The translations under genes were made by a program, and so were the position numbers. A DNA stretch of 10,225 bases, taken from assembly GCA_005240025.1 (NCBI GenBank), contig SBBK01000058.1, forward strand, positions 1 to 10,225. The letters run 5' to 3'. Below are positions 1,209 through 9,411 of the stretch, in pieces (the first letter of the stretch is position 1; each line of letters begins with the position of its first letter). Source of the stretch: an archaeon (lineage in GTDB: Archaea; Thermoproteota; Nitrososphaeria; Nitrososphaerales; Nitrosopumilaceae). The notes beneath the pieces are model-generated. The model saw only the letters and a program-made list of their open reading frames with translations, did no database searches and was not told the origin of the DNA.

Positions 1209-1646
1209 TTGAGTCAATCTAGAAATTTATTGAAGCATCCAAAGAAAAAGCCGCCACACAAAGACGAGCCCACAAAAGACGAGGACAAACCAAATATCGA
1301 ATCTGAGAGCCAAGACGAACTAGTAAGGCGCAAAAGGCTTCTTGACAGATTATTCTGGATTCGAGTGGGCTTTGCTGCAATAGGCGGCTTTGTTGCTACA
1401 TTTCTCTTTGAGTCAATCGGGGGCGAGGAAAGGAGGTGGGCATCGATTGGTTTTATGATAATGATCTTCATTATTACTGCAGTAATTGGTAAAGGACTAA
1501 AGATTGGCCTGCCGCCATCGGACAGAAAAAAACTGATCACGACAGGCATTGGGAGCTACGTCTTCATTTATCTGTTCATGTGGATTCTTTCGTATACTCT
1601 GATACACCATCCAGACACAGGCCTGATCCCACTAAAGCCAATCTAA
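1209..1646 (+). CDS. small three-helix membrane protein upstream of cbiT
   Basis: 145 residues. The first 47 are hydrophilic and highly charged (Lys/Glu/Asp/Pro). Three hydrophobic segments follow at about 49-70, 78-97 and 110-132, ending in a short tail. The start is TTG at 1209; no in-frame ATG or GTG lies between the upstream stop at 1182 and this codon, and the next Met is inside the second membrane segment. No Shine-Dalgarno sequence is visible. The gene ends 2 nt before the cbiT ATG, so it is probably co-transcribed with the cobalamin genes. I do not recognise the family with confidence. The helix lengths and the last segment (ITTGIGSYVFIYLFMWILSY) loosely recall EMC6-type small insertase subunits. 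That is a weak resemblance, and a role linked to cobalamin or cobalt remains equally possible from context. Confidence 0.75.
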   Translation: MSQSRNLLKHPKKKPPHKDEPTKDEDKPNIESESQDELVRRKRLLDRLFWIRVGFAAIGGFVATFLFESIGGEERRWASIGFMIMIFIITAVIGKGLKIGLPPSDRKKLITTGIGSYVFIYLFMWILSYTLIHHPDTGLIPLKPI

Positions 1647-1648
1647 CT

Positions 1649-2239
1649 ATGTGGAAATTCAAAACGCCCGGCATACCTGATGAATATTTTGAGAGGACAG
1701 ATGAGGTACCAATAACAAAAGAAGAAGTCCGTGCAGTCCAGATAGGCAAGGCAAGACTTGCAGCTGGTAATACGGTATATGACATCGGGTGCGGGAGCGG
1801 CTCCATTACTGTAGAGATAGCACTTCAGGTTGGAAACAACGGCAAAGTTTATGCAGCTGACATTGATCCACGGGCAATTGAGCTTACCAAGAAAAACCTC
1901 GCAAAATTCCAAATCTCAAATACTGTTCTCATACTTGGAGACGCAAAACAAAACATATCTGGTCTTCCTTCTGCTGACGCCATATTTATCGGAGGAACTG
2001 GTGGCGACACAAAAGAAATAGTCAAACTCTGCTACGAAAAACTAAATCCAGGTGCAAGAATAGTAATTGGAACAATTTTGATTGAAACGCTTTATTCCGT
2101 ATTGGAAATAATAAATGAGCTCGATTTTGCCGACATCGACATTACGCAAATAACAATATCAAAAAGCAAAAAAACCTCGACTGGAACAATGATGCTTGCT
2201 CGAAATCCCGTAACAGTAGTCTCGGCAACAAAAAAGTGA
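1649..2239 (+). CDS. cbiT: CbiT, cobalt-precorrin-6B/7 C15-methyltransferase (decarboxylating)
   Basis: 196 residues, the usual size of stand-alone archaeal CbiT. The enzyme methylates C15 of the corrin ring and decarboxylates the acetate at C12, using S-adenosylmethionine, in anaerobic-route cobalamin synthesis. Seen: the family opening GIPDEYFERTDEVPITKEEVRA (split as residues 8-15 and 16-29), the SAM-binding glycine loop DIGCGSGSITVE (45-56), the acidic end of the second strand at Asp71/Asp73, and a GGTGG turn (115-119). The frame extends upstream to an ATG at 1580, but that would add 23 unrelated residues inside the preceding gene. ATG 1649 gives the family's normal N-terminus and a 2-nt gap to the upstream stop. 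It lies in one operon with cbiL and cbiF downstream. Confidence 0.92.
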   Translation: MWKFKTPGIPDEYFERTDEVPITKEEVRAVQIGKARLAAGNTVYDIGCGSGSITVEIALQVGNNGKVYAADIDPRAIELTKKNLAKFQISNTVLILGDAKQNISGLPSADAIFIGGTGGDTKEIVKLCYEKLNPGARIVIGTILIETLYSVLEIINELDFADIDITQITISKSKKTSTGTMMLARNPVTVVSATKK

Positions 2240-2246
2240 CAGTTCG

Positions 2247-2254
2247 CTTTTATC
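2247..2254 (+). promoter_or_regulatory. possible internal promoter (TATA-like box) before cbiL
   Basis: CTTTTATC in the 37-nt gap between cbiT and cbiL is centred about 26 nt before the cbiL ATG, the spacing expected for a leaderless start. It may give cbiL-cbiF their own transcript in addition to read-through from the upstream genes. Based on motif and spacing only. Confidence 0.4.
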
Positions 2255-2276
2255 TAGGAGATTCTGTTTTCAAAAC

Positions 2277-2999
2277 ATGCACGAACTTGTCTGCGTTGGT
2301 TGCGGTCCAGGTGATCCGGAATTACTCACAGTCAAAGCAGTAAAGGCAATCCAAGATGCTCAGGTAATAGCATGCCCTACAGCAAAGGAAGGCAAGCCAA
2401 GCATCGCACTTTCTGTAGTGGAATCAATAATTGACAAGTCAAAAAACCCGGAAATAGTAAATCTGGTCTTTCCGATGGTAAAAGACAAGGAAACACTGGA
2501 ATTCACATGGCAGAAAAACACCGAGATTCTGGCCAAAAAGGTACTGGACGGAAAAAAGGTGGTGTATCTAACTGTTGGCGACCCATACCTGTACAGTACG
2601 TGGATCTACCTGCACAAGGAATTGCAGGGCAAATATCCACAGATAAAAATCTCCGTCATACCTGGAATTGTCTCGATGTTTACATTTGCATCCAAAGTCG
2701 GAATTAGTTTGGCAGAAGGGGCAGAGACAATGGCAGTCATACCATCATGTTATGACCTCTCAAGGGTAAAGGAAACTGCAAAAAACTGCGACACAATGAT
2801 CTTTCTCAAAGATGGCAGATACTTTGATCAGGTGATCAAACTACTAAAGGAAGCTGGATTTTCAGACGATTCTATATTTGCAATAGGACAGGACCTTGGT
2901 ACCCCAAATGAAATTGTGCGGAAAATGAGGCTTGGTGATGTAAGCGAAAACACAATGACTACGAAATATTTCTCGATCATGGTGGTAAAGCGTGTCTAA
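2277..2999 (+). CDS. cbiL: CbiL, (cobalt-)precorrin-2 C20-methyltransferase
   Basis: 240 residues; a tetrapyrrole (corrin/porphyrin) methylase of the SAM-dependent CobA/CysG fold. It adds the methyl group at C20 of (cobalt-)precorrin-2, an early step in ring contraction. Seen: the N-terminal glycine loop VGCGPGDPELLTVKA (7-21), the central GDPYLYST motif (101-108), and PGIVS (129-133), typical of the C20 enzymes. The sequence at 32-42 (ACPTAKEGKPS) fits the CbiL/CobI subgroup better than the C11 or C17 enzymes. Its last codons overlap the GTG start of cbiF by 8 bp, which points to translational coupling. Whether the substrate carries cobalt cannot be read from the sequence, but the neighbouring separate cbiT suggests the anaerobic, cobalt-early route. 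Confidence 0.92.
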   Translation: MHELVCVGCGPGDPELLTVKAVKAIQDAQVIACPTAKEGKPSIALSVVESIIDKSKNPEIVNLVFPMVKDKETLEFTWQKNTEILAKKVLDGKKVVYLTVGDPYLYSTWIYLHKELQGKYPQIKISVIPGIVSMFTFASKVGISLAEGAETMAVIPSCYDLSRVKETAKNCDTMIFLKDGRYFDQVIKLLKEAGFSDDSIFAIGQDLGTPNEIVRKMRLGDVSENTMTTKYFSIMVVKRV

Positions 3000-3771
3000 G
3001 GTATATTTTGTAGGGTGTGGGCCGGGAGACCCAGACCTAATAACAGTCAAGGCAAAAAAATTGTTGCAAAAGGCAGACGTGGTGGTGTATTCTGGCTCAC
3101 TGATTCCGCCCCAAATCCTCAAAATCTGCAAAAAAGCCGAGCTCCATGACGCATCCGGCCTTGTGCGGGAGGAAATATTTGAGATTCTCAAAAAAAACGC
3201 GCAAAGCGGAAAACTTGTAGTAAGATTACACGATGGCGATCCGGCCGTTTTTGGAACAGTGCGCGAGCAGACAGACAATTTGCAAAAGGAAGGAATTGAT
3301 TTCCAAATAATACCCGGCGTGACGTCGTTTTTGGCCGCCTCTGCCGCACTCGGACTCCAGCTTACCTTGGCTGGAGTGACACAGACCATTATTGTTACTA
3401 GGGCGGAAAAACGTACCAAGGTCCCCTCCGGGGAGAAAATCTCCGAGCTTGCGCGCCACAAGTCCACCATGGTTTTCTATCTGAGCGTACAACTCCTATC
3501 AGACATTGTAAAAGAGGCACTAAGGGGCGGTTATCTCCCAACCACGCCTGCAGCCGTAGTATACAGAGCAAGCTGGCCTGACCAAAAAATAATCACAGGA
3601 ACCTTGCAGGACATAGTAAAAAAGGTCTGGGCGCAAAAAATCACAAGAACTGCAATTGTAATAATTGGCGATGTCATACAACCAAAATCATACGAGTATT
3701 CCAAGCTGTACGATAAGACATTTAGCCACGGCTATAGAAAGGCAAAAAATACTCTAGATCCTACAAAATAA
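2992..3771 (+). CDS. cbiF: CbiF, (cobalt-)precorrin-4 C11-methyltransferase
   Basis: 259 residues, the normal length for CbiF/CobM. It transfers a methyl group from SAM to C11 of (cobalt-)precorrin-4. Seen: VGCGPGDPDLITVKA (7-21), YSGSLIP (33-39), LHDGDPAVFGTVREQ (79-93), PGVTSFLAASAALG (108-121) and the C11-enzyme signature region LTLAGVTQTIIVTRAEKRT (125-143). The start is a GTG that overlaps the end of cbiL. No ATG lies close by in frame, and the residues from this GTG match the family start directly. Last gene of the cobalamin unit; the next gene is convergent. The C-terminal 25 residues are basic and probably variable. Confidence 0.94.
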   Translation: MSKVYFVGCGPGDPDLITVKAKKLLQKADVVVYSGSLIPPQILKICKKAELHDASGLVREEIFEILKKNAQSGKLVVRLHDGDPAVFGTVREQTDNLQKEGIDFQIIPGVTSFLAASAALGLQLTLAGVTQTIIVTRAEKRTKVPSGEKISELARHKSTMVFYLSVQLLSDIVKEALRGGYLPTTPAAVVYRASWPDQKIITGTLQDIVKKVWAQKITRTAIVIIGDVIQPKSYEYSKLYDKTFSHGYRKAKNTLDPTK

Positions 3772-5433: not shown

Positions 5434-6092
5434 AGCAAAGCCAAATCTCAATACTAAATCACAAAATCATACGATGCAAAAAATGCCCCCGACTGGCAAA
5501 ATACATCAGAAATGTGGCAGCCAAGAAGGTAAGGCGATACAGACAGGAAAAATACTGGGCAATGCCCCTGAGCGGTTTTGGCGATCCCAGTGCCAGGCTA
5601 CTAATCATCGGGCTTGCACCCGCAGCTCATGGGGGAAACAGAACGGGCAGAATGTTTACTGGGGACAGCTCAGGGGACTGGTTGGCTAAGGTACTCTTTG
5701 ATAATGGTTTTGCAACAAAGCCAACAAGCCAGAAAATCGACGATGGATTCAGCCTCATCAATGCATACATCACAGCAGCAGTCAGGTGCGCACCACCAGA
5801 CAACAAACCTACAAGACAAGAAATCAATACATGTTCTGAATTTTTAATGCAGGAACTGATGATATTAAATAATGTCAAAGTAATTGTGTGTCTTGGGAAA
5901 ATTGCGTTCGATACTCTAAGGCAGCTGCTTGGGATCAAAGGCGGGAGGTTTTTCCACGGAAACTGTTTTCCACATAACAACAAGGTGATCTTGGTCAGTT
6001 ACCATCCGAGCAGGCAGAATACACAGACAGGCAGACTGAACTGGGATGATTGGAACAAAATATTTCAGCGTGCCAGAACCATATCGGGCTAG
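5430..6092 (+). CDS. uracil-DNA glycosylase, family 5 (UDGb type), Fe-S
   Basis: 220 residues. It removes uracil (and, in this family, often hypoxanthine or other deaminated bases) from DNA to start base-excision repair. Seen: Fe-S cysteines C16 and C19 in CKKC, then C120 and C135. Motif A is GLAPAAHGGNRTGRMFTGD (61-79), where the family-5 Ala replaces the catalytic Asp/Asn of other UDG families. The motif B region is SYHPSRQNTQTGRL (190-203), with the conserved His192. These features separate it from family 4 (GEAPG...). The start ATG 5430 overlaps the stop of the surface-protein gene by 4 bp. That coupling of a repair enzyme with an anchored surface protein has no obvious functional logic. 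The TAG stop shares a CTAG with the stop of the convergent gene. Confidence 0.93.
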   Translation: MKQSQISILNHKIIRCKKCPRLAKYIRNVAAKKVRRYRQEKYWAMPLSGFGDPSARLLIIGLAPAAHGGNRTGRMFTGDSSGDWLAKVLFDNGFATKPTSQKIDDGFSLINAYITAAVRCAPPDNKPTRQEINTCSEFLMQELMILNNVKVIVCLGKIAFDTLRQLLGIKGGRFFHGNCFPHNNKVILVSYHPSRQNTQTGRLNWDDWNKIFQRARTISG

Positions 6093-6943
6093 TAATTTTT
6101 TATCGATTCCAGTAATCTTTGATCCTTGAAGATAATGTACTCGGGATAGCAATTTAGCATTACACCATTATCAATTTCATAAAATTTCCAATTTTTACAT
6201 TCGTTGTCATATTCGAAATCTGTATTGTCAAATTTCCACTCAAAACCATTTCGTATCTGAAGATCGGGATAACCGTGGCCACGCACCAGCGTGATGGAGT
6301 TGTTCAAATAATCCACATTAATTTCTGCAAACAACGCATTTGGATACAGGTAGATGACCTTTGGGTGATCCGTTATCGCGTCAAACTCTTTTTTTGTGAC
6401 ATATTCATTGTGCAATAAAATTACTTTATCGTATTTTTTTAAAATTTCTGGGTTTCTGTCAATGTCTGCATCAGTGACGTACTGATATCCAAGCAGACGC
6501 AGTGAATTGAATGCGGCTCTGCTGGCAGAATACTCACCGCTAAACTCGTCAGGAATCTTTACGGTAAGGCACGAAGTGCCGCACTCGTTCTTGTAATAAT
6601 CATAAAATCCATTTTCACTGTAGGCGGCCTCTGTAAAACCAGGATATACCACTACGCTGTTTTGTGACTGGTTCAATAGGCCGATTTTGTAATACGTGAG
6701 CATCAGTTCTGGTTTTAACTCAAACTCTGCACCACTATACGTAATGGTTTTTGCTTCAGCATCAACTCGGACATCTCCCTGCTTTACAAGTATTTTAAAA
6801 AGTGCACCTTCTACTGGCAGTTCTTTTCTGGCTGCTTCATCTTCATGGGTAAGGACGCTATCTTTGACAGTCAATGTCATGTAATATGCAACAAATGCGG
6901 CAACCGCAACAACCAATACCGCAACAAGAATCTTGTTAATCAT
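6089..6943 (-). CDS. membrane-anchored protein of unknown function downstream of aroD
   Basis: 284 residues. One N-terminal transmembrane helix (about 4-24) is followed by an extracytoplasmic domain. Seen: VVVYPGFTEAAYSENGFYDYY (97-117, given in two parts: VVVYPGFTEAAY, SENGFYDYY), cysteines at 121, 125, 249 and 265, and KKYDKVILLHNEYVTKKEF (169-187), followed by a strand, VIYLYPNALF. The last pattern recalls the Rossmann-like C-terminal domain of N,N-dimethylformamidase large-subunit-like proteins (YDV-hydrophobic-H-EY), a weak resemblance with no claim of activity. The start overlaps the aroD stop by 8 bp, so it is the second gene of a two-gene operon. I cannot name the function. Confidence 0.8.
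   Translation of the reverse strand: MINKILVAVLVVAVAAFVAYYMTLTVKDSVLTHEDEAARKELPVEGALFKILVKQGDVRVDAEAKTITYSGAEFELKPELMLTYYKIGLLNQSQNSVVVYPGFTEAAYSENGFYDYYKNECGTSCLTVKIPDEFSGEYSASRAAFNSLRLLGYQYVTDADIDRNPEILKKYDKVILLHNEYVTKKEFDAITDHPKVIYLYPNALFAEINVDYLNNSITLVRGHGYPDLQIRNGFEWKFDNTDFEYDNECKNWKFYEIDNGVMLNCYPEYIIFKDQRLLESIKNY
6096..6101 (+). terminator. oligo-T stretch after the UDG gene
   Basis: Six T residues start 4 nt after the UDG stop codon and lie within the 3' end of the convergent gene. Such a T-run is enough for archaeal RNA polymerase termination; no hairpin is seen. Confidence 0.35.
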
Positions 6944-7880: not shown

Positions 7881-8531
7881 CTATTCGTATGTCGATGAGC
7901 TTGACTGGGACGAAAGTCCTGAGGGAGAGGGAACCGATGGGAATCGTTCACCAATTTGCTGTTCTGCAACAGCCGATGCCTCTTGCAAGATCTTGTCGGT
8001 TTCCTCATTTGAGGTCTCAGAGTCGATGCTAAATGCATCTCCTGCCAACGAGTCCATCATGAGACCGCCGAGTGTCTGAGTCATTGCATTTAGTTCTGCA
8101 TCAGCTTCTGGCATAAATCGTCCAAGCGATGATTTCAAACCTTTCATGGTTGACATTGCTGGACCGATAGCAACCATTGCATCGCCCAAGTCGTGGATTG
8201 TAGTCAAACGTAGCTGTACCTGCTCTAATGCCATTCTTGCATTGCCAAGCATTTTTGATACCTTGCGAATTTCAGCAAGCTCGTTTGACAGGACGCGACT
8301 TGCGCTTGTATCGTGTTGTTGCATCGCAGCTACGATTCGTTTAAAAAGTTGAGCGTCACGTTCGTGCAACTTGGAAAGCATTGAATCCATTTTTGAAATT
8401 TGCAACTGCAGCTTGTTTACTGCTGTCTGGATTCTTGGTTTCAATGCACCCTGTGGTTTGACAGAGTCTTTGATTTTGTCTGTAAAACTTGCGGTGTCTT
8501 GACGCGCCCAATTCTTATCGAAGCTGGTCAT
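7881..8531 (-). CDS. cdvB: CdvB paralogue, ESCRT-III/Snf7-like cell-division protein
   Basis: 216 residues. CdvB proteins polymerise on the membrane at mid-cell and drive constriction and abscission in crenarchaea and thaumarchaea. Seen: a long, almost uninterrupted helical core from about 15 to 165, rich in Lys/Arg near its start (KPRIQTAVNKLQLQISKMD, 31-49), with heptad-like spacing and a Met-rich end (MTQTLGGLMMDSL, 150-162), as in Snf7 domains. A Ser/Glu-rich linker follows, then RFPSVPSP (196-203), which resembles a MIM2 motif that binds the MIT domain of the CdvC/Vps4 ATPase. The winged-helix region that links Sulfolobus CdvB to CdvA is absent, so it looks like a CdvB1/B2-type paralogue. 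ATG 8531 is chosen over a TTG two codons upstream. cdvA and cdvC are not in the window. Confidence 0.88.
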   Translation of the reverse strand: MTSFDKNWARQDTASFTDKIKDSVKPQGALKPRIQTAVNKLQLQISKMDSMLSKLHERDAQLFKRIVAAMQQHDTSASRVLSNELAEIRKVSKMLGNARMALEQVQLRLTTIHDLGDAMVAIGPAMSTMKGLKSSLGRFMPEADAELNAMTQTLGGLMMDSLAGDAFSIDSETSNEETDKILQEASAVAEQQIGERFPSVPSPSGLSSQSSSSTYE

Positions 8532-8546
8532 GCGCAACTGTTTTGA

Positions 8547-8562
8547 ATTTAATTCTTAATTG
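8547..8562 (-). promoter_or_regulatory. AT-rich promoter region of cdvB
   Basis: The minus strand reads CAATTAAGAATTAAAT here, including a TATA-like stretch about 26 nt before the cdvB ATG. The exact box is ambiguous. It lies directly next to the 18-bp palindrome. Confidence 0.35.
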
Positions 8563-8566
8563 ATGT

Positions 8567-8584
8567 AGTTGATTATAATCAACT
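8567..8584. promoter_or_regulatory. perfect 18-bp palindrome between cdvB and the racemase-like gene (candidate operator)
   Basis: AGTTGATTATAATCAACT is fully self-complementary. A further GTTGA at 8585-8589 pairs with the right arm to give TCAAC-T-GTTGA, so three alternating GTTGA half-sites lie side by side. The centre is about 45 bp from the cdvB start and about 62 bp from the racemase-like start, next to the cdvB TATA region. The size and symmetry suit a dimeric transcription factor. Binding protein unknown. Confidence 0.5.
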
Positions 8585-8607
8585 GTTGAGTAAATTTAGC
8601 TGACAAG

Positions 8608-8616
8608 AATAAAATT
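8608..8616 (+). promoter_or_regulatory. TATA-like box of the racemase-like gene
   Basis: AATAAAATT is centred 26 nt before the ATG at 8638, which suits a leaderless transcript. Confidence 0.5.
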
Positions 8617-8637
8617 GCAATCACTGGGCAGATTAGC

Positions 8638-9411
8638 ATGGGCAAAATCGTGGTCTTTGATTCAGGGTTTGGTTCGCTGTCAATAATCAGGGCAATTCAA
8701 AAACAAACCAAGGCACACATCGTATACGTCGCAGATCAGAAAAACTTTCCATATGGGGAAAAAACCAAAAAGGAACTTGAAAAAATCATACAAACTACAA
8801 TCATTTCATTGCAAAAGAGATTTGACCCAGACTTGATAGTAGTCGGCTCAAACACACCATCGATACTGCTTGAAGATCTGATTAAAAATGGGAAGGGGTT
8901 GATAGGGGTATACCCGCCACTAGGTCGTGCATATGCAATTACGAAAACAAACTCTGTCGCACTTCTTGTTACACATGTGGTGGCCAACAGCAGGTCATTC
9001 GATTATTTTATAAACAAAAATTCGATCGCAAAAAAAATAAAAACAATTAAGATAGATTCGAGTGAATTAGTTGACTTGGTTGAATCAGGAAAATTCCTCC
9101 ATAGTGAAAAATTTTGTATTGCTAAAATAAATCGAGTATTGCGGAATAAACTTACAGGTAATAATGTTGACGTTGTAACATTATCAAGTACCCATTTGCC
9201 ATTTTTGTTACCAATATTGAAAAAATTGTTCCCAGACATTATTTTTCTGGATCCAGCTGATGATGTTGCTGTAAAAATTATAACACACAAATCATTTGTA
9301 CCGACCAGACGAAACAGGTTAGATGTCTTTTCCACCGGCAATGCTGCTGTTTTTCAAAAAAATTTGCAAAAGATCGGTTTGCGAAAACTTGTAATTCCAA
9401 TCGAATTATAG
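8638..9411 (+). CDS. glutamate racemase (MurI)-like protein lacking both catalytic cysteines
   Basis: 257 residues, normal MurI length and domain order. Seen: VFDSGFGSLSIIRAI (6-20) with the conserved Asp8 and Ser9, ADQKNFPYGEKT (32-43), the first active-site loop VVGSNTPS (68-75), GVYPPLGRA (90-98), and the second loop TLSSTHLPFL (181-190) with His186. In active MurI the loops read ACNTAS and GCTHYP. Here both cysteines are serine (S71, S184), and the Glu of GVEP is Tyr92. Two-base thiol-driven racemisation is therefore not expected. The fold and most substrate-loop residues remain, so the protein is not simply decayed. Archaea of this kind lack peptidoglycan, so a wall precursor role was unlikely in any case. 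Base composition falls strongly in the middle (9001-9060 has about 20% G+C). Divergent from cdvB. Confidence 0.85.
   Translation: MGKIVVFDSGFGSLSIIRAIQKQTKAHIVYVADQKNFPYGEKTKKELEKIIQTTIISLQKRFDPDLIVVGSNTPSILLEDLIKNGKGLIGVYPPLGRAYAITKTNSVALLVTHVVANSRSFDYFINKNSIAKKIKTIKIDSSELVDLVESGKFLHSEKFCIAKINRVLRNKLTGNNVDVVTLSSTHLPFLLPILKKLFPDIIFLDPADDVAVKIITHKSFVPTRRNRLDVFSTGNAAVFQKNLQKIGLRKLVIPIEL

Follow-up and report, generated by a model that had tools for sequence, protein, structure and literature searches.

The DNA stretch analyzed here, referred to as the window, comprises 10,225 nt of contig SBBK01000058.1 (assembly GCA_005240025.1) from an archaeon of the family Nitrosopumilaceae. The family belongs to the ammonia-oxidizing archaea (AOA), which are among the most abundant archaea. 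The window carries a gene for a protein of 257 residues that resembles the glutamate racemase MurI, but has serine at the positions of both catalytic cysteines (Ser/Ser, as opposed to Cys/Cys). The gene is single-copy in its source genome, which is 79% complete, and lies head-to-head with a gene for an ESCRT-III paralogue (cdvB). The gene and its active-site motifs are located as follows.

8638..9411, + strand: Ser/Ser MurI-fold protein, 257 residues, uninterrupted open reading frame
8659..8667, + strand: Asp8-Ser9-Gly10, retained (96/96 Ser/Ser genome loci; 100% of Cys/Cys proteins)
8749..8757, + strand: Pro38-Tyr39-Gly40 loop, retained (96/96 loci)
8848..8850, + strand: Ser71 (TCA) replacing the first catalytic cysteine (from alignments; TCN in 64/64)
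9187..9189, + strand: Ser184 (AGT) replacing the second catalytic cysteine (from alignments; AGY in 64/64)
9190..9195, + strand: Thr185-His186, retained (96/96 loci)

A phmmer search against the PDB sequences gave 23 matches, every one named glutamate racemase, and the two-domain MurI fold extends over the full length of the protein. In the four PDB alignments printed, Ser71 and Ser184 fall on the two catalytic cysteines; neither half-site contains a catalytic cysteine. This confirms the preliminary description of the locus, which had set VVGSNTPS against ACNTAS and LSSTHLP against GCTHYP of glutamate racemases. Its further statement that DSG, the PYG loop, His186 and the full length are retained also holds for the intact window protein, and DSG, the PYG loop and His186 are kept across the 96 loci. 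The residues that presumably contact the substrate (DSG, PYG, Asn72, Thr73, Thr112, Glu149 and Thr185-His186) are all present. The AOA proteins have kept the MurI fold and most of the signature of an amino-acid or dicarboxylate pocket. With the glutamate racemase model TIGR00067 it scores 98.3 bits, below the equivalog cut-off of 146.65. A Pfam search at E 0.001 gave no match, PF01177 (Asp/Glu/hydantoin racemase) included.

PF01177 matched in 6 of 13 AOA genomes, 4 of them above the cut-off; the protein of genome G102 reached 30.3 bits against a cut-off of 31. In the six matching genomes the hits lie solely at the racemase-like locus, and in the other seven the known gene itself was missed. 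No cysteine-bearing paralogue was thus found in the 13 genomes at that sensitivity. The Mur ligase domain PF08245 was found in none of the 13 (the source genome of the window being 79% complete) while the control matched in 12 of 14, so that no classical consumer of D-glutamate was seen. PF14336 was likewise found in 0 of 13, although its control matched nowhere either. The AOA protein differs from MurI/RacE (TIGR00067; PDB-entries 2dwu, 2gzm, 1zuw and 2jfn) in having two serines for the two catalytic cysteines, in the change of GG to GS after DSG and of CTHYP to STHLP, and in a background where no Mur ligase was found.

Three protein searches, of which the best 120 matches each (out of 4171, 7995 and 5614) were taken, were combined with six locus proteins in an alignment of 364 sequences. 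It contains 155 Ser/Ser and 208 Cys/Cys proteins; in the one left over, the first site falls in a gap. Cys/Ser or Ser/Cys intermediates were sought among these 364 proteins (best 120 per search) and none was seen. All of the best 120 of 4171 homologues are Ser/Ser. At the genome level, only loci with both an open frame of 190 residues and the motif pattern were counted. They gave 97 distinct readable sequences, of which 96 are Ser/Ser; the remaining one, that of G160, is Cys/Cys, and its protein is identical to a protein named Bathyarchaeia. Counting fragments, the gene was matched in 97 of the 121 genomes belonging to the window's family, in 61 of 70 from a second AOA family and in 6 of 7 from a third. 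A draw of 300 genomes from the phylum gave 47 with a match, of which G160 alone lies outside the order, and a scan of genome contigs found two bacterial loci only. The G102 protein (locus L055), which we take to be that of N. maritimus SCM1, reads SNTPS and LSSTHLP and has serine at both sites.

The double substitution is therefore real and extends over a whole group of archaea. The preliminary description had proposed to check whether Ser/Ser is conserved in relatives, and named close relatives with intact cysteines as the case that would speak for a strain-specific decay. No such relative was found among the AOA loci read (96/96 Ser/Ser), and this together with the dN/dS values given below led us to reject strain-specific decay. 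Ser/Ser occurs in all three AOA families examined and most simply dates back to their common ancestor. As a separate observation, Bathyarchaeia-type archaea (L033, P0121-P0130) have a Cys/Cys MurI with histidine in place of asparagine after the first cysteine.

In a tree of 68 proteins, a single branch with 100/100 support separates the 28 Ser/Ser from the 40 Cys/Cys proteins. Ser71 is always encoded by TCN and Ser184 always by AGY. Since TGY to TCY and TGY to AGY each require one base change, the simplest history would be two different one-step changes from cysteine to serine, each fixed a single time. The 96 Ser/Ser loci show no variation at Asp8, Ser13, Tyr39, Ser71, Thr73, Ser184, Thr185 and His186, and at position 149 they have Glu in 94 cases and Asp in the other 2. 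The Ser/Ser proteins further depart in concert from the Cys/Cys ones by G13S, T15S, G32A and Y187L and, within the Asn72 group, by G183S. Cys160 was considered as a compensating cysteine. Although 97% of the Asn72 group have it, it is not conserved in the I/V group and hence is no general replacement for the lost cysteines. The gene is under purifying selection: 27 pairs with an identity of 78% or more gave NG86 estimates of dN/dS from 0.097 to 0.297.

We assign a probability of roughly 60% to the reading that these proteins form an AOA-specific MurI-fold subfamily which has lost the defining chemistry of the family and binds a small acidic ligand, and may in addition catalyze a one-sided reaction. 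Judged by its chemistry, the AOA protein is most likely not a glutamate racemase, because two-base 1,1-proton transfer is not expected at useful rates when the two thiols are missing; it probably does something other than form D-glutamate. The ligand would sit in the old racemase pocket. The protein may then be a ligand-responsive or binding protein, or may catalyze a one-sided reaction such as elimination, isomerization or hydrolysis, in which Ser71 and Ser184 would position or polarize the ligand. That both hydroxyl groups are strictly conserved while the adjoining Asn72 varies suggests that the serines themselves matter. The human trans-3-hydroxy-L-proline enzyme, which presumably has a different fold and keeps one cysteine, offers a parallel. 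There, exchange of the epimerase cysteine for threonine gives a dehydratase, a precedent for a hydroxyl swap leading to elimination (PMC8142540, part of the text available). The earlier proposal of a changed reaction or binding role rather than decay stands in so far as this is likelier than decay, because the substitution is old and clade-wide, the pocket mostly kept and the gene under purifying selection. If the subfamily reading is true, the group would offer a clade-wide natural experiment on the function of a MurI pocket without its two thiols.

Several observations weigh against this reading. Residue 72 is Asn in 83 of the 96 Ser/Ser loci, Ile in 9, Met in 3 and Ser in 1, and residue 112 is Thr in 88; since both vary, the old ligand may not be the present one. 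In another AOA family, three Ser/Ser proteins (G283, G227 and G215) exceed the equivalog cut-off of TIGR00067, so their overall sequence is still racemase-like. The active-site pocket is predicted from sequence and fold match rather than from coordinates. No gene match was found in 24 of the 121 genomes of the window's family, some of these being contig gaps, and broken copies adjoin cdvB in G233 and G278 (L083, L084). The genomes without a match include six listed in the window's genus. Absence is doubtful in G372 and G340, where cdvB reaches the contig end at which the gene would lie, and in G367, where a 96% cdvB fragment lies on a contig end. A short 5' stub adjoins cdvB in G239 (L116), G351 has a decayed second copy and G426 a decayed copy. 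The absences and the several wrecks show that the gene is not essential: it is dispensable, and a minority of genomes lack it or carry a broken copy. The broken and stub copies next to cdvB (L083, L084, L116) show that it was lost repeatedly. A separate frame of 161 residues (G328:C217:1074-1517) matches only residues 2-71 and 175-250 and looks like the product of an in-frame deletion of the central part.

The gene is named glutamate racemase in public records (among the matches listed). A study from 2025, of which part of the text was available, describes a glutamate racemase (GLUR) as ubiquitous in AOA, links it to amoA, gludB, alaA and aspB, states that the needed active sites are present in a modeled N. 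maritimus protein and infers D-glutamate use (PMC12363236). By distribution and name GLUR is the same gene family, whose sequences are Ser/Ser here. The protein might accordingly still be a glutamate or aspartate racemase that uses its serines as weak bases, with AOA using D-glutamate, as that study holds; we consider this unlikely. The pocket residues besides the cysteines are indeed mostly kept, and a hydroxyl residue in place of one proton-transfer cysteine is likewise found in the Thr/Cys pair of two Asp/Glu racemases, EcL-DER and MMP0739 (PMC8142540). The natural exceptions described in the available parts of PMC8142540 and PMC12838360, however, keep one cysteine, as does RacX with Ala79/Cys193, and the Cys197Ser variant of EcL-DER has no racemase activity (PMC12838360). 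Furthermore, no Mur ligase that could use D-glutamate was found in the 13 AOA genomes. The L055 protein, presumably the N. maritimus one, also has serine at both sites. If the AOA protein cannot racemize, the conclusion of PMC12363236 that D-glutamate is used in hadal carbon and nitrogen cycling, which rests on this gene, falls. In the titles and opening abstracts of the open-access literature searched, there was no report of a natural two-serine MurI; a search on the superfamily at large brought up work on other topics.

The neighborhood of the gene bears on a second alternative and is as follows.

7881..8537, - strand: CdvB1/B2-type ESCRT-III paralogue, head-to-head neighbor (NF041005, 165.7 bits)
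8538..8637, no strand: divergent intergenic region of 100 bp; contains the element AAATTTAGCT, also present beside cdvB where the racemase-like gene is lost

Of 58 informative genomes in the window's family, 57 have the two genes head-to-head, separated by 82-104 bp (the window, L002-L030, L040, L050, L055, L056, L086-L089, L094-L109 and L111-L113). This count omits L110, which starts at a contig end, and the broken copies of G233 and G278, and includes G174 (L089) with a shortened frame. All 6 loci from the Nitrosocaldus-type family have the same arrangement. One could therefore think of a partner or regulator of cell division that is co-expressed with cdvB from a shared promoter, and the broken copies that still adjoin cdvB fit such a role. 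Moreover, of 15 genomes that lack a gene match and were searched for cdvB, 8 (G357, G362, G367, G291, G180, G320, G360 and G349) show no full match to it above 60% identity. These may contain only other CdvB paralogues, either because the pair was lost together or because both genes fall into assembly gaps. According to the available part of PMC3684127, N. maritimus has a pair of CdvB paralogues of the same type (Nmar_0029 and Nmar_0061).

The motif AAA[AT]TTAGCT is present in 53 of the 57 intergenic regions of head-to-head pairs in the window's family and was not seen in those printed for another AOA family. In five genomes that lack an intact racemase-like gene (G287, G239, G314, G300 and G302; L115-L119), it or the variant AAATTTATCT remains next to cdvB. 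The element may thus belong to cdvB alone, and co-regulation is not shown by it. In G352, the sole exception among the 58, the gene lies away from cdvB (L093, L114). In the Nitrososphaera-type family cdvB is found within 1.5 kb in only 2 of 30 loci, and the 12-kb stretches of G215 and G283 do not contain it. A role in cell division is, in our view, just as improbable as racemase activity. The placement beside a cdvB paralogue mentioned in the preliminary description is conserved, whereas a functional link does not follow from it.

A hydantoinase/oxoprolinase gene (PF01968, PF05378) lies directly downstream on the same strand, at a distance of ~80-110 bp, in 8 of 30 Nitrososphaera-type loci and also in G215 (L077 for G215; L154-L159, L176 and L179). 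The window's own genome has such a gene elsewhere (G000:C190). This arrangement would fit an enzyme that, along with a HyuA/oxoprolinase-family protein, acts on a hydantoin- or 5-oxoproline-type cyclic amide. However, the HyuA-family gene was found in 8 of 16 genomes tested, and six of the eight without a match have the Ser/Ser gene (G102, G089, G144, G227, G197 and G257), while G287 has it without the Ser/Ser gene. We rate this possibility a little below the two preceding ones. That the gene is a murI acquired from bacteria and now decaying as a pseudogene is very improbable. Genuine wrecks in a few genomes (G233, G278, the G239 stub and G426) would fit this reading, but the window has an intact full-length frame, dN/dS among relatives is 0.10-0.30, the motifs are invariant across the 96 loci and selection argues against decay of the family as a whole.

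Beyond the subfamily reading itself, we tentatively consider a more far-reaching version, which is less likely than not: a first double-serine branch of the Asp/Glu racemase superfamily, either an enzyme or a glutamate-type sensor, invented once in the AOA ancestor via two single-base changes. Its reaction or signaling role would be new to the fold and possibly tied to ESCRT-III division or to the hydantoinase/oxoprolinase partner.

Some minor features of the window were also observed. The divergent intergenic region contains a perfect 18-bp palindrome, AGTTGATTATAATCAACT, at 8567-8584, of which 16 bp are kept in the close relative L003. As a candidate operator of the family it was dropped, since it is only partly kept in one close relative. 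An open reading frame of 284 residues at 6089-6943 has a weak match to DMFA2_C below the cut-off and occurs in 2 of 21 stretches compared. A uracil-DNA-glycosylase-family gene and cbiT/cbiL/cbiF are frequent further neighbors. The latter, methyltransferases of the cobalamin pathway, lie in a row (cbiT, cbiL, cbiF) at 1580-3771 of the window and recur near the gene pair in other AOA.
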